A stretch of 25,839 nucleotides of DNA from a virus, in the IMG/VR virus record IMGVR_UViG_3300040960_000542, positions 1 through 25,839 of that record; one strand, written 5' to 3'. The position numbers and the translations under genes are program-made. The notes below the pieces were generated by a model. That model did not search any database. It was given only the letters and a program-made list of their open reading frames with translations, and had not been told where the DNA came from. Of this stretch, positions 4,445-13,991 are shown in pieces. Each line of letters opens with the position of its first letter. Positions within the stretch are counted from its first letter, which is position 1.

Positions 4445-4467
4445 CGCCTCTCCCTAAACCTTAAAAC

Positions 4468-5001
4468 ATGGCTTGTTCACTTACTTTGGCCGGACGGGGC
4501 GTAGGGTGTAAGGATGCCCTCGGTGGAATCAAACGCATCTACGTTTCCGAATGGACTGACGGATTTTGGGACGACGAAGCGAGCGGCGAAGTGGCCGACG
4601 CCACTGCAGCTGAAACCTTCTACACCTACGACATGACCCGTGGGTCTGGTTCCTTGAATCAAACTATCACCTCCGACCTCGCCGCAGGTACGGTCTACTT
4701 TGACCAAGTTTGCTCGGTGACGTTCAACAAGGTTGCCGCTGCGGACATCGCAGAAATTAGCAACCTCGTAAAAGGTCGCATGGCGGTGTTGGTTCAAGAC
4801 AACAACGACAACTGGTTCGTCATGGGACACAAAAACGGCGTCGAAGTGACGGGCGGAACCGCCCAGACCGGAACCGCTGCCGGAGACCAAAACGGATTCA
4901 CGATTGAGTTCTCTGCCCAAGAGGTGGCCCCAGCTCCATTCTTGGCGTTGACCGCAGGCGCACCAAGTGGTGTAAACATCACGATCACGGCTGCACCTTA
5001 A
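4468..5001 (+). CDS. Tail-tube-like structural protein
   Basis: A 177-residue, beta-rich protein rich in Gly, Ala and Thr. It begins MACSLTLAGRGVGCKDALGG and continues IKRIYVSEWTDGFW. Central strands include SGSLNQTITSDLAAGTVYFD, and the C-terminal part reads AVLVQDNNDNWFVMGHKNGV then EVTGGTAQTGTAAGDQNGFT. This pattern recurs in Bacteroidetes phages and fits a major tail-tube or similar abundant virion subunit; a head decoration protein is the alternative. The start shares TAAAACATGGCT with the capsid gene, and a strong terminator follows at 5049-5077, so capsid and this protein look like a highly expressed pair. Tail-tube function is inferred, not shown by a motif. Confidence 0.6.
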   Translation: MACSLTLAGRGVGCKDALGGIKRIYVSEWTDGFWDDEASGEVADATAAETFYTYDMTRGSGSLNQTITSDLAAGTVYFDQVCSVTFNKVAAADIAEISNLVKGRMAVLVQDNNDNWFVMGHKNGVEVTGGTAQTGTAAGDQNGFTIEFSAQEVAPAPFLALTAGAPSGVNITITAAP

Positions 5002-5048
5002 GACTGCGAAAATACCGGGCCACCTTAGGCCGTTATTGTTACAAGGAG

Positions 5049-5077
5049 GGGGAGGGCGTTGGCCTTCCCCTTTTTTA
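5049..5077 (+). terminator. Rho-independent terminator after the capsid/tail-tube pair
   Basis: A 9-bp stem (5049-5057 with 5062-5070, one G-U pair), a GTTG loop and a run of six T. Only ten bases separate it from the next start at 5087, with no promoter-like sequence between, so the portal genes probably depend on read-through. Confidence 0.85.
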
Positions 5078-5086
5078 TTTAGACCT

Positions 5087-5488
5087 ATGATTCACCTTGT
5101 CCCAAATTCTGCCACCAACGTCGTCTATACCACGCCGTTTGAAGCGCGCAAGTTCCTTGCCGCGTTTACGGACTACCTTTTGGTCTTGACAAATCAGGCC
5201 ACCGAGGAGCAGTTTGCTTGCATCTTCAACTTTCAATACGACAACGAGAGATATACCCAAGCGGACCTCCCGACAAACAACGACGACCCGGTGAACGGGG
5301 AAATCCTTTTGACCGAATCGGGCCTCTACACCTACACCATCTATGGCCAAAACTCCGACTTTAACCTCGACCCTACCGACGCGGTGGTGGTGGGGGTGTG
5401 TGAGGTGGGCACTTGCAAGGTGAGCGACGAACCCGCGTGGACCATCCCAACCGTGACAATCCCTGACAACGTCATATATTACGAATGA
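5087..5488 (+). CDS. Hypothetical virion-associated beta-rich protein
   Basis: A 133-residue protein of unknown function. It starts MIHLVPNSATNVVYTTPFEA and has a pattern of strands with FACIFNFQYDNERYTQ, NGEILLTESGLYTYTIYGQN and VVVGVCEVGTCKV, ending VTIPDNVIYYE. Similar short beta-sandwich proteins occur beside capsid and tail genes in Bacteroidetes phages. I chose ATG 5087 because the longer upstream frame runs back through the terminator stem. It lies between the tail-tube-like gene and the portal, one base before the portal start codon, so a minor structural or head-tail role is likely. No catalytic motif is visible. Confidence 0.6.
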   Translation: MIHLVPNSATNVVYTTPFEARKFLAAFTDYLLVLTNQATEEQFACIFNFQYDNERYTQADLPTNNDDPVNGEILLTESGLYTYTIYGQNSDFNLDPTDAVVVGVCEVGTCKVSDEPAWTIPTVTIPDNVIYYE

Positions 5489-5489
5489 C

Positions 5490-7163
5490 ATGGAATTACT
5501 GAAGCTCAAAGAATACCAAGAGCGTTCGTACGCCGAGAAGCCCTCGAATCAAGGGTTCGTAAACTACGGCGACGACAACCTCTTCCCTCAATACCTCATC
5601 GACCTCTACAAGTCGAGCGCCACGCATAACGCCCTGTGTACGTCTATTGCCTACATGATATTCGGCGACGGCGTACAGGCCGATACGTTGGAGGCGCGTT
5701 TGAAGATTGAGGAGTGGGGTTTGCAAGACGAGGTCCGCAAGGCGTGTCTCGACCTGAAGATTCAAGGCGGGTTCGCGTTGGAGGTGGTGTACTCCATCGA
5801 CCGGAGCACCATCGCCAAGGTGCGCCACTGCCCCTTCGAGAACATCCGAAGCGCGGAAGTGGACGAGAACGAAGACGTGAACTTCTACTACTACTCGAAG
5901 GACTGGGCCGACAAGACGTGCGAGCCGGAGGTGGTGCGTGCATTTGACCCGTCCGACTCGGTGGACTACCCCGTGCAAATCTTGTACGTCAAGCCGTTCT
6001 CTCCCGGTTCATACTACTATCCCAAGCCCGACTACATCGGCTCGATTGACTACATCGAGCTCGACAAGGAAATCGGTAAATACCACATCAACAACATCAA
6101 GAACGGGTTGGCCCCTTCGTTCACGATTCACTTTAAGAACGGAGTCCCAGCGCAGGAGGAGCGATTGAGAATCAGAAACGACATCGAACGTCAATTGGCC
6201 GGGGCTACGAATGCCGGAAAGTTCATTGTCACCTACTCCGACTCTCCCGACCGCAAACCCGACTTCGAGCCGTTCCCGCTTTCCGATGCCGACAAACAAT
6301 ACCAGTTCCTTTCCACCGAGGTGTCCGACAAAATCATGGTTGGTCACCGCGTGGTGTCTTCGGCTATGTTCGGAGTTAAGACGGCGGGACAACTCGGCAA
6401 CACCCAAGAGTTGCAAGTCGCCTCGGAGTTGTTCGACCGCCAAGTCATCAAGCCCTACCAACGAATCGTAAAAAGCGCCCTAGAATCCATCTTCATCGCG
6501 GCGGGAGCACCTACCATTGTCTCGGTCGAAGAAGTGCCGCCTATGGAGCCCGTAGAGGCCGAGAAGTTGTCGGAAACCGTTGAACTCGACCTCGCTTGTG
6601 ACTACCTCATCGAAATGGGCGAAGAAGTCGACGACGAATGGGAGTTGATTGACGCCCGCCGGGTGGACGTAGAAACCGAGGCCACACAAGATGCCCTTTG
6701 GAACTTCGCCCGCGTGCCCTCAGGCAAGCCCCAAGCCAAGTCGGAACAAGACAACGAGCTCGTGAAAGTTCGATATGCTTATATGCCCAAAGTCACAGGA
6801 AAGAACGGGAACGAATCGAGGGACTTTTGCAAGCGCATGGTGGCCGCTGGCAACCGCGTATGGAGAAAGGAGGACATCGACGCCGCCTCAAATCGTGCTG
6901 TGAACCCCGGATGGGGACCAAACGGCTCCGATACCTACGACCTCTTTTTGTACCACGGGGGCGGATCGTGCCAACATTTTTGGGAGCGCCGTACCTACCT
7001 CCGCAAGAACAACAAGAAAATCAGCGTCAACCGCGCCCGCAAGATTTTGCGTGAGGCAGGGTTGGAACCGCTGCCACAAAATGACCCGCGCGTTGCCAAG
7101 CCCACACGAGAGCAAGTCAACCGTGGTTTCCTCGAACCCAAGAACTGGACAACACCCGTATAA
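5490..7163 (+). CDS. Portal protein with C-terminal accessory domain
   Basis: The portal forms the ring at one capsid vertex through which DNA is packaged and released. Residues 1-400 match the portal plan: FVNYGDDNLFPQYLIDLYKS near the start, SATHNALCTSIAYMIFGDG, then LEVVYSIDRSTIAKVRHCPF, a stem-like helical region (LRIRNDIERQLAGATNAGKF) and the clip-to-crown part ELFDRQVIKPYQRIVKSALE. Residues about 425-555 are an added domain: YMPKVTGKNGNESRDFCKRM, RVWRKEDIDAASNRAVNPGW and SCQHFWERRTYLRK. I recognise this C-terminal block from Bacteroidetes phage portals, but its role is unknown; the Cys, His and Trp residues could bind metal. The gene follows the capsid genes and precedes the connector, an unusual order. 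Confidence 0.82.
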   Translation: MELLKLKEYQERSYAEKPSNQGFVNYGDDNLFPQYLIDLYKSSATHNALCTSIAYMIFGDGVQADTLEARLKIEEWGLQDEVRKACLDLKIQGGFALEVVYSIDRSTIAKVRHCPFENIRSAEVDENEDVNFYYYSKDWADKTCEPEVVRAFDPSDSVDYPVQILYVKPFSPGSYYYPKPDYIGSIDYIELDKEIGKYHINNIKNGLAPSFTIHFKNGVPAQEERLRIRNDIERQLAGATNAGKFIVTYSDSPDRKPDFEPFPLSDADKQYQFLSTEVSDKIMVGHRVVSSAMFGVKTAGQLGNTQELQVASELFDRQVIKPYQRIVKSALESIFIAAGAPTIVSVEEVPPMEPVEAEKLSETVELDLACDYLIEMGEEVDDEWELIDARRVDVETEATQDALWNFARVPSGKPQAKSEQDNELVKVRYAYMPKVTGKNGNESRDFCKRMVAAGNRVWRKEDIDAASNRAVNPGWGPNGSDTYDLFLYHGGGSCQHFWERRTYLRKNNKKISVNRARKILREAGLEPLPQNDPRVAKPTREQVNRGFLEPKNWTTPV

Positions 7164-7727
7164 ATGGCACTCACCGCAGAAGTTCTCTTTGTCAACCCGG
7201 ACTACATGAAGCGTATGACCCAGCTCAACGGCGGGGTGGAAGACGCGGTCATGGTTCCGGCCATCATCTTGGCACAAGACAAACACATCCAACAATACCT
7301 CGGCACAGACCTTCTGAACAAGTTGAAGGCCGACATCCAAGCCGACACCCTGACGGGCAACTACGAGGCCCTCGTAGACGGCTACGTGAGGAAGGCGACG
7401 GTGTGGTGGTCGATGGTTGAACTCCTCCCGAACTTGTACGTCAAGCTCGACAACGGCGGGTTGGTTATCCGGACGGCGGAGAATACCTCGGCCATCTCCG
7501 AGGCGGACCTACACCGCGAAATTGAGAACGCAAGGCAGAACGCGCAATTCTACACCACTCGCCTTGTGGAGTACCTCTGCGCAAACATGACCCTCTTCCC
7601 TGAGTACACGTCCAACTCAGGTGCCGATATGTTCCCTGACTCAGCGGTGTACTTTCAGAACGGCATGACCATCTCCGGGGGCCACGATCAAATCGACCCG
7701 GACCTCGCTCGTAAACTCCTCCGATGA
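7164..7727 (+). CDS. Head-tail connector-like protein
   Basis: A 187-residue, mainly helical protein directly after the portal stop (7161-7163). It begins MALTAEVLFVNPDYMKRMTQ, then LNGGVEDAVMVPAIILAQDK and HIQQYLGTDLLNKLKADIQA, followed by VWWSMVELLPNLYVKLDNGG. This is the pattern of adaptor proteins (gp6/gp15-like) that bind below the portal ring, found in Bacteroidetes phages as a family of unknown structure. The position next to the portal supports an adaptor role. The stop overlaps the next start as ATGA at 7724. Confidence 0.65.
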   Translation: MALTAEVLFVNPDYMKRMTQLNGGVEDAVMVPAIILAQDKHIQQYLGTDLLNKLKADIQADTLTGNYEALVDGYVRKATVWWSMVELLPNLYVKLDNGGLVIRTAENTSAISEADLHREIENARQNAQFYTTRLVEYLCANMTLFPEYTSNSGADMFPDSAVYFQNGMTISGGHDQIDPDLARKLLR

Positions 7728-7810
7728 CCCGCAAAGAGAACATCGTGGCATTGAAGAAGTGGATGGAGAAGAACAAAGACAAGCCCAAACCGAAAGAAAA
7801 AAAGAAATGA
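7724..7810 (+). CDS. Small Lys-rich protein (28 residues)
   Basis: A tiny open frame coupled on both sides by ATGA overlaps (7724-7727 and 7807-7810). It encodes MTRKENIVALKKWMEKN and a Lys/Pro-rich end (KDKPKPKEKKK). It may be a real micro-protein, or may serve to couple translation of the connector and the membrane protein. No function can be named. The double ATGA junction is the main evidence. Confidence 0.5.
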   Translation: MTRKENIVALKKWMEKNKDKPKPKEKKK

Positions 7811-8010
7811 GCATCGAAACTCTCTTGAATTTGTTACCTTCCTTGCTGGCGGCAGTAGGGGTGTGGGTGTCTTTGAATAGCGAGGTGGCCAAACTCAAGG
7901 GACGAGTATATCGTTTGGAGTCTGACCAAGGAAAGATTGAGGCCATGCTGAAGGAGTGCGTCGAAGGCATCCAAGAGCTCAAGATATTGTTGGCCAAAAA
8001 GGGACTCTAA
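7807..8010 (+). CDS. Membrane-anchored coiled-coil protein of the lysis group
   Basis: A 67-residue protein with one N-terminal membrane segment (residues 5-20, TLLNLLPSLLAAVGVW) followed by a coiled coil (SEVAKLKGRVYRLESDQGKI to ELKILLAKKGL). This topology is common in small phage proteins beside the endolysin and fits an inner-membrane spanin-like or holin-accessory protein. I chose ATG 7807 because it overlaps the preceding stop (ATGA) and removes a charged leader present in the longer frame from 7759. The stop TAA shares its last base with the endolysin ATG (TAATG). Confidence 0.6.
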   Translation: MSIETLLNLLPSLLAAVGVWVSLNSEVAKLKGRVYRLESDQGKIEAMLKECVEGIQELKILLAKKGL

Positions 8011-8366
8011 TGTACAAATGGTTCAAGTTATCCGAGTTTGATTCGCCCGACCAACCGGGGTCAGGTGAACTCATGGAGCCCGCCGTGGTCCAAGCGTTGG
8101 ACATCGCCCGCGACATCTACGGGTTTCCGATGAAAGTGACGTCGGGGTTTCGCAGTGTCCCTCACAATAAGTCCGTCGGAGGTAGTCCCAAGTCTTCCCA
8201 CCTTCTCGGCTGGGCCGTAGACATCGCGGTCCCAAACTCCGAGCGCAGGTTCTTGATGCTTGAAGCGTTGTTGGATGCCGGGTTCCACAGAATAGGGATA
8301 GGAGACACATTCATCCACTGCGACCTTGATCCGAACAAGACGCCGAATTGTCTTTGGGTTTACTGA
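8010..8366 (+). CDS. Endolysin, M15-family peptidase
   Basis: A 118-residue zinc peptidase that should cut peptide cross-links of the host cell wall at lysis. The peptidase M15A metal motif is complete: SSHLLGWAVDIA gives His64 and Asp71, and FIHCDLD supplies His103. The substrate-binding stretch VTSGFRSVPHNKSVGGSP (43-60) is also typical. There is no signal peptide, so release needs a holin, and membrane candidates lie at 7807, 9216 and 20780. I chose ATG 8010, which overlaps the upstream stop as TAATG; the longer frame from 7956 is out of register with the upstream gene and looks spurious. The length suits single-domain phage M15 endolysins. Confidence 0.9.
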   Translation: MYKWFKLSEFDSPDQPGSGELMEPAVVQALDIARDIYGFPMKVTSGFRSVPHNKSVGGSPKSSHLLGWAVDIAVPNSERRFLMLEALLDAGFHRIGIGDTFIHCDLDPNKTPNCLWVY

Positions 8367-8373
8367 TTAGCCA

Positions 8374-9219
8374 ATGCACCTTACCCGTAAACACCGCACC
8401 GTCCACGCCGTCGACTGCAACGTAGAGCAGCGCAAAGGACAACAACACTTCCTCTTTATCTCGGACATCCACTACGACGCCATGAAGTGCGATCGTGAGC
8501 GGCTACACCGACACCTCGAAGAAGCACGAGAACTGGGAGCGGGTGTCTTCATCTTCGGAGACTTGTTCGACCTCATGCAAGGCAAGTACGACCCTCGTGG
8601 CAACTACTCCGAACTCCGACCCGAATACAAGTCCTGCATCTACGTGGACGAGGTTATCCAAGACGTAGGAGAGAAGCTGGCCAAATACGCCGATGTCATC
8701 AAGTTCATCTCCAAGGGCAACCACGAAACGAACATCGAGAAACGAATGATGGTGTCACCCATCGACCGCGTGGCACAAATCTTGAACGCAGCAGGTGGCC
8801 ACGTCGAGGTGGGAGGTTATGCGGGTTGGTTGGTTGTTCAGGCACACCGAAGCGGAGCGGCGAAGCGTCGTTTTAATATCCACTATCATCACGGCTACGG
8901 AGGGGGCGCCAAACGCTCCAAAGGAATCCTCGGAGCGGACATCGACCAAAAGGACTTCCCCGACGCGGACATCATCGTACGTGGCCACGATCACCAGAAG
9001 TGGCACCTACCTATCACCGTCGACCGCATCACCCACTCCATGAAGCTCGAACAACGCACGGTCCACCATCTCCGGTTGGGTTCATATAAGAAGCTCGGAG
9101 ACAGGTACGCGGGGTGGGCTACGGAAAAGAACTTCTCGACGCCACGTCTTGGAGGTTGGTGGGGTTGCTTGGAAGAGCGCCGGGATGATTACGTCTGGAC
9201 GATCAGAGAGGCGACATGA
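8374..9219 (+). CDS. Calcineurin-like metallophosphoesterase
   Basis: A 281-residue protein with all motifs of the metallophosphoesterase family: SDIHYD (30-35, Asp31 and His33), GDLFD (62-66), GNHE (115-118), the HYHHGYG stretch (170-176) and GHDH (204-207). These residues bind two metal ions. Family members act on nucleic acids, nucleotides or phosphoproteins, and the substrate cannot be told here. The gene lies between the endolysin and a membrane protein, at the end of the late block and just before the terminator at 9461. A role in nucleotide salvage, host DNA breakdown or defence evasion is possible. Its stop overlaps the next ATG (9216). Confidence 0.85.
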   Translation: MHLTRKHRTVHAVDCNVEQRKGQQHFLFISDIHYDAMKCDRERLHRHLEEARELGAGVFIFGDLFDLMQGKYDPRGNYSELRPEYKSCIYVDEVIQDVGEKLAKYADVIKFISKGNHETNIEKRMMVSPIDRVAQILNAAGGHVEVGGYAGWLVVQAHRSGAAKRRFNIHYHHGYGGGAKRSKGILGADIDQKDFPDADIIVRGHDHQKWHLPITVDRITHSMKLEQRTVHHLRLGSYKKLGDRYAGWATEKNFSTPRLGGWWGCLEERRDDYVWTIREAT

Positions 9220-10884: not shown

Positions 10885-11108
10885 GAGACTACATCAAAAA
10901 ACACTTCGGCTCCCAAAAGCAATGCGCCGAAGAGCTGGGAGTGAGTGAGAAGACCGTGGGCAACTGGATGAAGCACAACCCAAGCGGCATTCTGAAGCAC
11001 GCCCGGCAAATCGTGGAGACCAAGAACACGACCTATCTCCAACTTCACGGCGAGGTCGAGTACCGGGAACACGAGTTGAAAGTGCTTGAACCAACAAAGG
11101 AGACGTGA
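10881..11108 (+). CDS. Cro/XRE-like helix-turn-helix protein
   Basis: A 75-residue protein with a helix-turn-helix in residues 10-35: FGSQKQCAEELGVSEKTVGN then WMKHNPSGILKHA. The pattern Q-x-x-A-x-x-L-G-V-S-x-x-T-V-x-x-W is typical of Cro and XRE domains. The remaining part (YLQLHGEVEYREHELKVLE) may form a dimerisation helix. It likely regulates early transcription, perhaps of the methyltransferase it is coupled to (GTGA junction at 11105-11108). With no integrase present, a lysogeny switch is not indicated. Confidence 0.75.
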   Translation: MRDYIKKHFGSQKQCAEELGVSEKTVGNWMKHNPSGILKHARQIVETKNTTYLQLHGEVEYREHELKVLEPTKET

Positions 11109-11998
11109 ACCACGCGTCTCTCTTTTCCGGCATCGGGGGTTTTGACTTGGCCGCCGAGTGGATGGGGTGGAAAAACGTCTTCAACTGCGAGTGGGAGGAG
11201 TTCCCGCGACAAGTCTTGAAACATCACTTTCCAAACGCCATACAACATGGAGACATCAAAGAACTCGACGCGACAACTTACGCTGGACGAATTGATATCC
11301 TCACAGGAGGGTTCCCCTGCCAACCCTACTCCCTCGCCGGAAAGCGAAAGGGAAAGGAGGACGAGCGCCACTTGTGGCCGGAGATGCTGCGCGTTATTCG
11401 AGAATGCTCCCCGCGCTACGTCGTGGGCGAAAACGTTCGCGGCCTTGTTGGTTGGAATGGAGGGTTGGTCTTCGAAGAGGTGTGCGCTGACCTGGAAGCT
11501 CAAGGGTACGCCGTACAACCGTTTGTACTTCCAGCTGCAGGTGTCGGCTCATGCCCACACCGAAGGGATCGAGTCTGGTTTGTTGCCAACTCCGGTAGCA
11601 CAAATGGGAAACCGATTATTGGACGAGAATGGAGAGAACAGAGCAACCAACGGAATGAGGTACGGAGTAACCTTGAACCAATTAGCGAAGAGCGGACTAC
11701 TTCCAACTCCGACGGCATACGATTGGAACACCGCACGCAGCCCGGAAGCATTGCAGAAGGCAAAAGAGAAATATGGAAGCGCATTGCAGGACAGTCTACG
11801 CCAACGAGCTGGACAGGGTTCCCAACTGTCCCCCCTGTTTGTGGAGGAGATGATGGGCTTCCCAAAGAACTGGACGGCATCACCTTTTCAAAGTGGAGAC
11901 GAGAAAGCATAAAAGCGTATGGCAACGCCATTGTCCCTCAAGTCGCCTTGCAGATATTTAAGGCCATAAACCTGTACGAGAATGGAGCGAAACTTTAA
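11105..11998 (+). CDS. DNA (cytosine-5-)-methyltransferase
   Basis: A 297-residue C5-cytosine methyltransferase that transfers a methyl group from S-adenosylmethionine to DNA, probably to protect phage DNA from restriction. All core motifs are in place: I SLFSGIGGFDLAA (5-17), IV GGFPCQPYS with catalytic Cys72, VI VGENV (107-111), VIII HRRDRVWFVA (152-161) and X AYGNAIVPQVALQIF (271-285). The recognition region (162-250) is short. The start is GTG 11105, which overlaps the upstream stop (GTGA) and places motif I at the usual distance. A second long frame, 11247-11912, overlaps it fully. From about 11570 the methyltransferase frame uses codons unlike its neighbours (CGA, AGG, AGA, ATT, AAT). 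No partner nuclease is seen, so it looks like an orphan phage enzyme. Confidence 0.92.
   Translation: MNHASLFSGIGGFDLAAEWMGWKNVFNCEWEEFPRQVLKHHFPNAIQHGDIKELDATTYAGRIDILTGGFPCQPYSLAGKRKGKEDERHLWPEMLRVIRECSPRYVVGENVRGLVGWNGGLVFEEVCADLEAQGYAVQPFVLPAAGVGSCPHRRDRVWFVANSGSTNGKPIIGREWREQSNQRNEVRSNLEPISEERTTSNSDGIRLEHRTQPGSIAEGKREIWKRIAGQSTPTSWTGFPTVPPVCGGDDGLPKELDGITFSKWRRESIKAYGNAIVPQVALQIFKAINLYENGAKL
11247..11912 (+). CDS. Overprinted protein inside the methyltransferase gene (+1 frame)
   Basis: A 221-residue frame lying wholly inside the methyltransferase gene, one base ahead of its frame. It has protein-like features of its own: WSSKRCALTWKLKGTPYN then RLYFQLQVS (about 93-120), two copies of SGLLPTP (codons at 11577-11594 and 11694-11711), KAKEKYGSALQDSLRQRAGQ and a C-terminal block LSPLFVEEMMGFPKNWTASP. 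I recognise these blocks from phage and prophage proteins of unknown function annotated near or as cytosine methyltransferases. The two GLLPTP copies differ at synonymous positions in this frame (GGT TTG TTG against GGA CTA CTT) but code for unrelated residues in the methyltransferase frame. That supports selection on this frame. Start ATG 11247 is the first in the frame; expression is unproven. Confidence 0.6.
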   Translation: METSKNSTRQLTLDELISSQEGSPANPTPSPESERERRTSATCGRRCCALFENAPRATSWAKTFAALLVGMEGWSSKRCALTWKLKGTPYNRLYFQLQVSAHAHTEGIESGLLPTPVAQMGNRLLDENGENRATNGMRYGVTLNQLAKSGLLPTPTAYDWNTARSPEALQKAKEKYGSALQDSLRQRAGQGSQLSPLFVEEMMGFPKNWTASPFQSGDEKA

Positions 11999-12656
11999 AG
12001 GCGTCTGGATACCTTCCGAGATATGGTTGGACGCAAGATTGACCCTCGTGGAGAAGGCGCTGTATGCCGAGATAGATTCATTCTCCGGCAATGACCGAAC
12101 CTTCCACAAATCAAACGATACTATCCAATCGGAGTACGGCGTAAGCCGTCCCACCATCTCCAAAGCGATCAAGAATTTGGAGTCTTTGGGATTCATCGAG
12201 GCAACCTTCGACGGGCGTGTACGACACCTAACCGTGCAGGCAGACCGTAAAATTTTTACGGGCAGCCGGAAAGAATCTTTCGGGCAGCAGGAAAAAAATT
12301 TACGGGCAGAAGGAAAGAATAGTACCTCTACTAATACAATAGAGAGAACAGATAAAAACACATCTAAAAAGAGAGGGGCACGCCCGAGGGATTTGGATGA
12401 AGTTTTGGAATCTTTCAAGGAGGTTGGTGCGGAAGAGTCGGAGGCCCTCGCCTTCTTCGACTACTACGAAGCCAACGGATGGACACAAGGACGAAACAAA
12501 CCAATCAAAGATTGGAAGGCCGCCGCGCGCGGTTGGATAAGACGATCAACCCAATTTAAAAAGAATGACAACAAAAGACTTGGCCCTTCGGACGGCTCGC
12601 TCATTGCAGAGCATCTCCGACGCCTCGCGAATGAGTCCGGAGAGGGCATGGCGTGA
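11982..12656 (+). CDS. Replication initiator-like protein with internal origin
   Basis: A 224-residue protein. Residues 1-90 form a winged helix: GVWIPSEIWLDARLTLVEKA, FHKSNDTIQSEYGVSRPTIS then KAIKNLESLGFI. This is the HTH_36-type domain found in phage replication initiators. A variable, charged linker (about 95-135) follows, then a C-terminal domain with FFDYYEANGWTQGRNKPI and KDWKAAARGWIRR, as in phage replisome organisers that recruit helicase. The linker is encoded by 22-bp DNA repeats followed by an AT-rich stretch, as in the lambda O gene, where the initiator binds iterons in its own gene. It starts at ATG 11982, overlapping the methyltransferase end by 17 bases. Confidence 0.75.
   Translation: MERNFKGVWIPSEIWLDARLTLVEKALYAEIDSFSGNDRTFHKSNDTIQSEYGVSRPTISKAIKNLESLGFIEATFDGRVRHLTVQADRKIFTGSRKESFGQQEKNLRAEGKNSTSTNTIERTDKNTSKKRGARPRDLDEVLESFKEVGAEESEALAFFDYYEANGWTQGRNKPIKDWKAAARGWIRRSTQFKKNDNKRLGPSDGSLIAEHLRRLANESGEGMA
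12237..12370. other. Putative replication origin (iterons plus AT-rich stretch)
   Basis: Three good iterons and one degenerate iteron are followed by 12321-12370, which is 28% GC by hand count, against about 60% in ordinary genes here. Iterons next to an AT-rich unwinding region inside the initiator gene is the plan of the lambda origin in gene O. The function is inferred from this layout. Confidence 0.6.
12255..12320 (+). repeat. Three 22-bp tandem iterons in the initiator gene
   Basis: CGGGCAG recurs at 12259, 12281 and 12303, exactly 22 bases apart. The units are 12255-12276, 12277-12298 and 12299-12320. Copies 1 and 3 share TTTACGGGCAG, two variable bases and GGAAAGAAT; copy 2 has CTTTCGGGCAG and GGAAAAAAA. 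A degenerate fourth copy (CAGGCAG at 12237) keeps the same spacing. As 22 is not a multiple of three, the repeats cannot be selected as protein repeats. Confidence 0.8.
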
Positions 12657-13212
12657 AGGCACCAACGTACTCGTTGCATACCGAGAGGCCCCAGCAAAGA
12701 CCGAAGCCACCCTCATCATCTTGTTGAAGGAGACCCTCCAGTACCTCGACTACAACAAAGGCATCACCGCCGACCGCGACATCTTGGATGCGGTCCACCA
12801 TCTACGGGACACGTTCCCGGCCATGAAGCTCGAAGAATGGGCGGTCATCATGCACCGCCTCAAGACGGGAGAATACAGGCCCGGATATGAGCGTTTGAAA
12901 CTTCCCGAATTGGTTGATATATTCAGGCAGTACGAAGGCGAACGAGCCGCCGTCCGTGAGGGCAATTGGAACGAGCTGAAGAAGCACGCACCCGATCGCC
13001 TCAGCGACGACCAACTGGACGCCTTGTATAAGAACTACAAGAAACGTCGTGAAGCGGAAAGCAAAGAACTCCAAAAGAGCGCAAACATCAAGCGAGTCCC
13101 GGTCAAAAACGGGCGGTGGGAGCACATCCCGTACCCGAACGACAAACCGGAGCGCGATGGTGAAGAAGGTGGACACGGTGTTCAGCCAATACATCCGCCT
13201 GAGGGCGAGTGA
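12565..13212 (+). CDS. Hypothetical replication-region protein
   Basis: A mostly helical, 215-residue protein after the initiator. Recognisable stretches are NVLVAYREAPAKTEATLIIL, LRDTFPAMKLEEWAVIMHRL and LKLPELVDIFRQYEGERAAV. The block FPAMKLEEWxxxMxxxKxGxY followed by RLKLxExxxxFxxYExER recurs in Bacteroidetes phages beside replication genes. A helicase-loader-like role (as lambda P follows O) is possible but not shown, and no Walker motif is visible. The start is uncertain: ATG 12565 overlaps the upstream gene by 92 bases, ATG 12631 by 26. The C-terminal part after about residue 175 is charged and low in complexity, and overlaps the NinG start. Confidence 0.6.
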   Translation: MTTKDLALRTARSLQSISDASRMSPERAWREGTNVLVAYREAPAKTEATLIILLKETLQYLDYNKGITADRDILDAVHHLRDTFPAMKLEEWAVIMHRLKTGEYRPGYERLKLPELVDIFRQYEGERAAVREGNWNELKKHAPDRLSDDQLDALYKNYKKRREAESKELQKSANIKRVPVKNGRWEHIPYPNDKPERDGEEGGHGVQPIHPPEGE

Positions 13213-13540
13213 CCACCGAGGTATGGGAGAGTGCTATACGTGCGGAGCAGTCCGACATTGGACCGAGGTTGATGCGGGGCACTTCATGAGCCGGGCGTGC
13301 ATGAGCACACGATGGGACGAGAAGAACGTCCAGTTCCAATGCAAGCGGTGCAACGGCTTCCGAAGTGGGGAGCAGTTCCTTTTCTCCCAACACCTCGACA
13401 GGCAGCACGGAGAGGGCACCGCCGAGGCACTCTTGATTGAATCGAAGAAGACGCGCAAGTTTTCCCGCGACGAACTCGAAGCCCTATACCATCACTACAA
13501 GCGCAAAGTCGATGAACTCAAAAGCACGAAGGGACTTTGA
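13157..13540 (+). CDS. ninG: NinG/Rap-type recombination nuclease
   Basis: A 127-residue zinc protein of the NinG family, whose lambda member (Rap) cuts branched recombination intermediates. The family pattern is clear: VDTVFSQYIRLRASDHRGMG, CYTCG (Cys26, Cys29), VDAGHFMSRACMSTRWDEKN with His42, and QFQCKRCNGFRSGEQ (Cys62, Cys65), a CxxC-His-CxxC metal site of HNH-like type. I chose ATG 13157 because the family begins about here; the longer frame from 13049 adds a Lys/Arg/Ser-rich shadow of the upstream gene. It probably resolves joints formed in replication or recombination before packaging. Confidence 0.85.
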   Translation: MVKKVDTVFSQYIRLRASDHRGMGECYTCGAVRHWTEVDAGHFMSRACMSTRWDEKNVQFQCKRCNGFRSGEQFLFSQHLDRQHGEGTAEALLIESKKTRKFSRDELEALYHHYKRKVDELKSTKGL

Positions 13541-13991
13541 CGCATGGTTCACGGAGCACTACGACGAGCTCGTAGAAGTCTCCCGTCGGTTGCATCGTGA
13601 CAACCTCGACCTCTTGCACCATACCTACCTCTCGTGCGTGCTGGCCCTACGCAAGAACAAGAACATCTTGGACAACCTTCCGGGATATGTCCACACCGCA
13701 ATGTGGAATCTTTCCACGGGGACCTTCCGGAAGCTCTACAAAATCACCGACGCACCCGACTACACCCACGTTTCAAACTACGACATCCAAGAGGCCATCA
13801 GAAAGGAAGAGGCGTTGATCATGGCCAACCATCTCTCGTGGTTTGACAGAACCGTTTTAGAGTTATATCTTGACGGGTGGAGCATGGCCGAACTTGCCCG
13901 GCAATCTGGAATAGGTGTGTCGGTCCTTTACGAATCCATCTCACAAAGCAAAAAGAAACTCCGCCGTGTTATTCGTAGACGTGAAAACTAG
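13512..13991 (+). CDS. RNA polymerase sigma factor-like protein
   Basis: A 159-residue protein with the two-domain plan of a small sigma-70 (ECF-like) factor. Region 2-like: FDAWFTEHYDELVEVSRRLH, then NLDLLHHTYLSCVLALRKN and NLPGYVHTAMWNLSTGTFRK. Region 4-like helix-turn-helix: LSWFDRTVLELYLDGWSMAE, LARQSGIGVSVLYESISQSK and KKLRRVIRR. Region 2 is degenerate, so it may act as a sigma-like regulator and not as a full sigma factor. ATG 13512 is chosen because the family-like sequence begins there and it overlaps the NinG end. It is a good candidate for turning on late genes, whose promoters do not show the host consensus. Confidence 0.7.
   Translation: MNSKARRDFDAWFTEHYDELVEVSRRLHRDNLDLLHHTYLSCVLALRKNKNILDNLPGYVHTAMWNLSTGTFRKLYKITDAPDYTHVSNYDIQEAIRKEEALIMANHLSWFDRTVLELYLDGWSMAELARQSGIGVSVLYESISQSKKKLRRVIRRREN

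Follow-up and report, generated by a model that had tools for sequence, protein, structure and literature searches.

Two Nested Reading Frames at the Locus

The window, by which we mean the whole stretch of 25,839 nucleotides that was analysed, carries at 11105..11998 a gene, alpha, whose product of 297 residues begins at a GTG codon and has the C5-methyltransferase (C5-MTase) motifs I–VIII and X. Wholly nested within it in the +1 register, and on the same plus strand as the other parts of the locus, is a second open frame, beta, which begins at an ATG codon, runs from 11247 to 11912 (stop included), encodes 221 residues and occupies alpha codons 48–269. A sequence-only reading of this DNA had proposed that a second protein is overprinted here; both frames lie where it placed them and the comparative data uphold the proposal. 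We treat alpha as the candidate catalytic subunit and beta as the candidate +1-frame subunit.

Motif I (FSGIGGF, 11123..11143), motif IV with the catalytic cysteine (GGFPCQP, 11306..11326), motif VI (GENV, 11426..11437) and motif X (GNAIVPQ, 11921..11941) of alpha are invariant in alignment A2, in which motif VIII (HRRDRVW, 11558..11578) is conserved. The variable alpha linker, codons 163–235 (11591..11809), shares its DNA with the putative recognition region of beta, read in the other frame. Beta itself consists of an N-terminal part (residues 1–105, 11247..11561) overprinted on alpha motifs III–VIII, a variable centre (residues 106–190, 11562..11816) that contains LLPTP modules and is the putative target-recognition region, and motif IX (LSPLFVEEMMGFPKNW, 11826..11873), identified by a PSSM test in both directions; the GFP of beta lies 65 nt upstream of alpha motif X. 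The first SGLLPTP module (11574..11594) contains Thr-115, invariant in alignment A3, and the second (11691..11711) contains Pro-153, Thr-154 and Pro-155, which are nearly invariant there. The earlier claim that the two GLLPTP copies use different synonymous codons holds for S, G, L and L but fails for P-T-P, which is identical in both (CCA ACT CCG), and the residues that alpha reads at the two copies, said to be unrelated, include 'NS' in both. Atypical alpha codons across 11570–11800 had also been noted; codon adaptation is indeed low there (0.58, against 0.62–0.82 in other ORFs) but is as low (0.555) just after beta, which weakens the point.

In this register the third codon position of alpha is the second codon position of beta, so that changes silent in alpha nearly always alter beta. 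When the synonymous codons were shuffled with the alpha protein held fixed, 93 of 20,000 trials left the beta frame open, and the mean number of stops was 4.7; at a chance of ∼0.5% the open frame alone is suggestive, and it is the comparative data that decide.

The adjacent genes examined, which encode HTH proteins, NinG, terminase and portal, mark this as a phage genome, and no restriction enzyme was found among the genes examined around the locus, which makes self-protection a likely use of the methyltransferase. Within the same window, a NinG homologue at 13049–13540 (PF05766, E = 1.5e-15) overlaps both adjoining ORFs (12565–13212 and 13437–13991), and an ORF at 1714–2655 matches head maturation protease families as well as phrog_1530 (E = 4.5e-12), which is labelled DNA methyltransferase, a label that probably comes from a fused or misnamed family.

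Parts of a Methyltransferase Missing from Alpha

Alpha matches PF00145 over residues 1–213 only (E = 5.9e-47) and phrog_363 over its full length (E = 7.6e-75). Motifs I, IV, VI, VIII and X are present, and the motif residues are invariant in 52 alphas. The AlphaFold (AF2) model of alpha shows a largely confident core (residues 1–165) and a C-terminal helix pair, with residues 173–248 predicted to be disordered (pLDDT < 50). Its best structural matches are M.HhaI and M.HaeIII over ∼170 columns, corresponding to the large domain of M.HhaI; the small domain is absent from the model, and the alpha chain is predicted to be disordered where a recognition domain would be expected after motif VIII, ahead of motif IX.

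The sequence-only reading had credited the methyltransferase frame with every C5 motif, and in this it was mistaken, as motif IX was not found in the alpha frame in a scan with a profile of motif IX from monomeric enzymes (0.7 versus 6.6 bits for beta). For the window itself the best score in alpha was about 0 bits versus 6.3 in beta; the monomers score 41–54 bits, although the profile was built from them. Judged by its sequence, alpha is an incomplete C5-MTase that is without motif IX in its own frame.

Beta Is under Selection as a Protein

Divergence at fourfold sites of alpha (62 sequences) is 0.65 in codons 1–24 and 0.56 in codons 25–47, 0.05–0.42 inside beta (codons 48–269), and 0.645 in codons 270–297. 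At a finer scale it falls at alpha codon 48 and rises at codon 270, which are the start and stop of beta, and the median per codon is 0.17 inside beta versus 0.64 outside (p = 2e-13, with codons that are not independent of one another). An overlap-aware count over 51 nearest-neighbour pairs gave a dN/dS for beta of 0.41 (0.37–0.47), while the same ratio for a fictitious frame in non-overlapped alpha, as a control, was 0.67 and 1.14. The ratio for beta is 0.37 across alpha codons 48–150 (approximately the first 100 beta residues) and 0.22 across motif IX and the tail; in the middle region it is 0.47 in beta versus 0.67 in alpha, so that beta is the more constrained of the two there. Beta is thus under purifying selection at the protein level, and the selection on the +1 frame that had been suspected from codon usage is confirmed both by the drop in fourfold divergence over beta and by a comparison of synonymous and nonsynonymous rates for each frame. 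Across alpha codons 236–255 (11810–11869) both frames are strongly conserved, with a fourfold divergence of 0.05, and the FPTxPPVCGGDDGLP stretch of alpha within this region looks conserved in its own right.

A profile search with the +1 product, which had been proposed alongside the original observation, was productive in part: residues 12–180 of beta match phrog_1008 (E = 9e-24, profile positions 34–191 of 329), but no Pfam or NCBIfam family was matched. The beta profile had no match among the sequences of solved structures, and the AlphaFold model of beta is poor (pLDDT 57, pTM 0.26), the fold giving no confirmation of a small domain. ATG stands at the start of 86 of 87 betas and GTG at none, although both were allowed. 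Initiation through a Shine-Dalgarno sequence was considered and is unsupported; none was clearly present upstream of the beta ATG, and such sequences precede 8% of betas, below the 33% seen for internal ATGs at large.

Pairs of betas that are more than 75% identical in residues 1–105 are on average 27% identical in the centre and 79% identical in the C-terminal part, and the betas contain between one and six LPTP-like modules as counted with a loose pattern. Fixed flanks around a variable centre would be expected of a recognition domain, and we place recognition tentatively in beta because its centre is variable and alpha is without an ordered domain for this role.

Motif IX and Motif X in the Two Frames

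A profile of the C-terminal beta motif, run over the ∼300–450 windows of each of 11 monomeric C5-MTases, picked the true motif IX first in seven and second in two, and in the reverse test the motif IX profile of the monomers gave the beta motif the top rank in 149 of the 171 betas. The distance from the GFP of beta to motif X of alpha is 21.7 codons in most of 148 pairs, as compared with 19–24 in monomers, which puts motif IX at the expected place in the gene but in the other frame. The beta motif IX is without the R-E pair (TPRE) usual in monomers.

Motif X can itself belong to either frame in relatives. In three distinct loci (L279, L289 and L165/L194/L377, L165 being from Brevibacillus borstelensis) alpha stops after motif VIII, and the beta frame runs through motif IX into a motif X of its own, KACGNAVVP or KACGNAVNP. 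The alpha frame of L279 and L289 has 21–22 stops after motif VIII, and beta persists. Variants of this type show that a single chain can hold both beta and motif X, that the alpha linker serves chiefly to connect to motif X, and that beta can be kept when the overlap has been lost. Some 1 kb downstream of the split gene, L289 has a second C5-MTase-like gene (4459–5583) with an in-frame stretch resembling motif IX, LTERECWRLLGF.

No true fusion of all motifs in one frame was found among the loci examined. L366 (2001–2707), which appeared to join alpha motifs I–VIII to the end of beta in one ORF, was rejected as a natural fusion since one G is missing from a G-run relative to its sister loci L362–L364, the four being copies in one IMG genome. 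The missing G sits just after motif VIII and swaps the alpha and beta frames downstream; its loss may stem from misassembly or from phase variation at the homopolymer. A similar frame break is seen in L236.

Distribution of the Frame Pair

When 330 related loci were classified by profile, nearly all proved to have the two frames in the same +1 register. Beta, searched against viral contigs, returned 80 loci (beta identity 41–69%, both frames open), each with an alpha match that overlaps it in an unchanged relative frame, and a search of genomes with the beta profile added 80 further loci, mainly from Bacteroidota with some from Bacillota. In this first set beta overlaps alpha in +1 in 171 of 171 loci, a result that is partly built in because the searches used beta as the query; broken frames are also present in four of them (L094, L153, L163 and L164). 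A search with an alpha profile alone gave 80 loci, 79 of them new, and beta was present in all 79, in +1 in 78, with L231 a frame-broken or tandem copy; the test is a fair one but not fully independent, since the profile came from alphas accompanied by beta. A search with a second beta profile gave 80 of 80 loci in +1, bringing the second set overall to the same register in 158 of 159 loci. Eleven ordinary monomeric C5-MTases from the same genomes have 15–31 stops in the +1 frame, and none of them has a beta match.

Among annotated phages, the frame pair is found in those of Paenibacillus, Lacticaseibacillus, Bacteroides, Porphyromonas and Synechococcus and in marine phages, as well as in Salmonella phage SEN4, Escherichia phage ESSI2_ev129, Pseudomonas phage PMG1, Burkholderia phage BcepC6B, Xanthomonas phage PhiXhv-18, Cronobacter phage JC01, phages N15 and K1ind1, and Mycobacterium phage Nitzel. 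Some phage records annotate both frames and many annotate one. Beta appears to be rare in bacterial genomes, since a sample of 395 Bacteroidota genomes had it in two, one of which was the sample's own centre.

In the well-studied phage N15 an unannotated beta frame, ending in GQLNPHHSRWLMGLPVEW, lies inside gene 58 (L392, 697–1422), and another lies in the methylase gene of Mycobacterium phage Nitzel (L393, 2348–3007). A hidden out-of-frame HNH endonuclease has been reported in phage methylase genes, including that of one cluster F1 phage (PMC11855218).

Comparison with Known Two-polypeptide Enzymes

The small ORF of M.EcoHK31I also lies inside the large one, in a different frame. That enzyme, which methylates YGGCCR, and M.AquI, specific for CYCGRG, are known C5-MTases made of two polypeptides (PMC3404938). 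In M.EcoHK31I the large chain has motifs I–VIII and X together with the predicted recognition domain, and the small chain has motif IX (PMC3404938). Alpha and beta divide the motifs in the same way, and by this analogy of partition M.EcoHK31I is the closest known kind; unlike in that enzyme, however, the corresponding region of alpha is predicted to be disordered and evolves fast, and the variable region is in beta. M.AquI has motifs I–VIII in one chain; its other chain holds motif IX and the distal recognition region, and motif X is in the small subunit (PMC3404938). The window resembles it in having the catalytic motifs I–VIII in one chain and motif IX in the other, and differs in that motif X (11921–11941) is in alpha and not in the small chain. 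L279, L289 and L377 show the motif partition of M.AquI, but nested in the +1 frame.

A Probable Two-polypeptide Methyltransferase and Its Alternatives

We consider it very probable that alpha and beta form an obligate two-polypeptide C5-MTase in which alpha catalyses and beta recognizes the target and completes the fold. Alpha would bind AdoMet and carry out catalysis through motifs I–VIII, its disordered linker leading to a C-terminal helix with motif X. Beta would start at an internal ATG of its own, in the +1 frame, and its variable, module-built target-recognition region would, together with motif IX, make up the small domain of an ordinary C5-MTase, binding the major groove and setting specificity while motif IX packs against motif X. 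The two chains would have to assemble for DNA to be methylated, and methylation would probably shield the phage genome from host restriction. Most likely, then, the hidden beta supplies the DNA-recognition half that alpha lacks. The sequence-only reading had pictured an enzyme with a companion of uncertain role, which does not fit an alpha lacking motif IX and an ordered recognition domain and a beta that has motif IX; its guess of a specificity factor fits, and the two products look like parts of one enzyme, whereas its guess of an anti-restriction factor finds no support given motif IX in beta and motif X in the beta frame of L279, L289 and L165/L194/L377.

It is unlikely, though worth weighing, that the division is that of M.EcoHK31I throughout, beta contributing only motif IX and a docking surface and recognition remaining in alpha between motifs VIII and X. 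Such a partition has been published for that enzyme (PMC3404938), and the FPTxPPVCGGDDGLP stretch is itself conserved in alpha; against it, alpha residues 173–248 are predicted to be disordered, the middle region evolves faster in alpha than in beta (0.67 versus 0.47), and in L279 and L289, where nothing of alpha follows motif VIII, only the beta frame retains the region. That beta is an independent companion, an anti-restriction factor or a regulator, overlapping a complete methyltransferase by chance, is hard to reconcile with a motif IX missing from alpha and present in beta, with the fusion of motif X to beta in three distinct loci, and with the presence of beta in 79 of 79 loci selected through alpha, which would be unexpected of an optional partner; we regard it as quite improbable, even granting that a complex of alpha and beta is something we infer and that the beta family is without a Pfam or NCBIfam entry.

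Programmed frameshifting out of alpha, to give a fused protein with motifs I–VIII, the recognition region and motif IX and no separate beta, would agree with the position of the +1 segment, which coincides exactly with that of recognition and motif IX in one-frame enzymes, and with the lack of a Shine-Dalgarno sequence at the beta ATG. Selection on the +1 frame begins, however, at alpha codon 48, the beta ATG, well ahead of the recognition segment, dN/dS over the first 100 beta residues is 0.37, and 86 of 87 betas start with ATG and none with GTG where both were allowed, so that we hold frameshifting to be highly improbable. It is scarcely credible that the conservation of the +1 frame is a shadow of alpha conservation, codon bias or RNA structure and that no protein is made: alpha is highly conserved over motifs IV–VIII, which can make any frame look conserved, and chance alone would leave the frame open in ∼0.5% of cases, but the silent sites of alpha are suppressed over beta only, dNN/dNS differs from that of control regions, L279 and L289 keep beta where the alpha frame is gone, and ordinary C5-MTases have no such frame.

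Origin and Implications

The geometry of the gene suggests a frame swap in a one-frame ancestor. By a small balance of probability, we favour the view that a widespread class of C5-MTases, in phages of Bacteroidota, Bacillota, Pseudomonadota, Actinomycetota and cyanobacteria, derives from one ancestral enzyme whose segment with recognition region and motif IX moved to the +1 frame, after which the alpha linker and the N-terminal part of beta were overprinted, one on each side of the swap; its members would mostly carry the annotation of a single gene and, when cloned, would need beta to be active. A one-frame ancestor was not found, and the swap is hence put forward as a hypothesis.

Should the two-polypeptide reading hold, a large group of DNA methyltransferases in phages, for the most part annotated as single genes, would be half-enzymes; recognition predicted from the annotated frame would be based on a disordered linker, and single frames, once cloned, may be inactive. 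Few complete gene overlaps in phages would be conserved as widely as this one. Its origin by a frame swap inside one enzyme, with products that stayed partners, would be testable, and the overlap would offer a simple route to new specificities, since beta modules differ between close relatives.

The Arrangement in Existing Annotation

The families matched by beta (phrog_1008), by alpha (phrog_363) and by the proteobacterial betas (phrog_31772, 'DNA methyltransferase') are listed as separate methyltransferases, and the phrog entries shown contain nothing that links them as two frames of one gene. In Paenibacillus phage Bloom and Escherichia phage K1ind1, which have the same arrangement as the window, both frames are annotated as DNA methyltransferase and a two-subunit relation is not stated. 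We found no paper that describes the arrangement as a split enzyme, in a literature search that reached few subscription papers and is therefore weak evidence of novelty.

The total overlap of C5-MTase ORFs in different frames was called striking in 2017 for the streptococcal phages 5093 and MM1 (PMC5601072, citing Tn5252). As in the window, the inner ORF of these phages is in +1, and it matches the N-terminal part of beta weakly (E about 5e-6); unlike in the window, the outer frame encodes a complete monomeric enzyme whose motif IX is in frame, so that there is no split. The ORF pairs lie at 6055–7023 and 6212–6640 (L389) and at 7477–8634 and 7571–8053 (L390), and the match of the inner ORF to beta may be a by-product of alpha similarity, or else a remnant.
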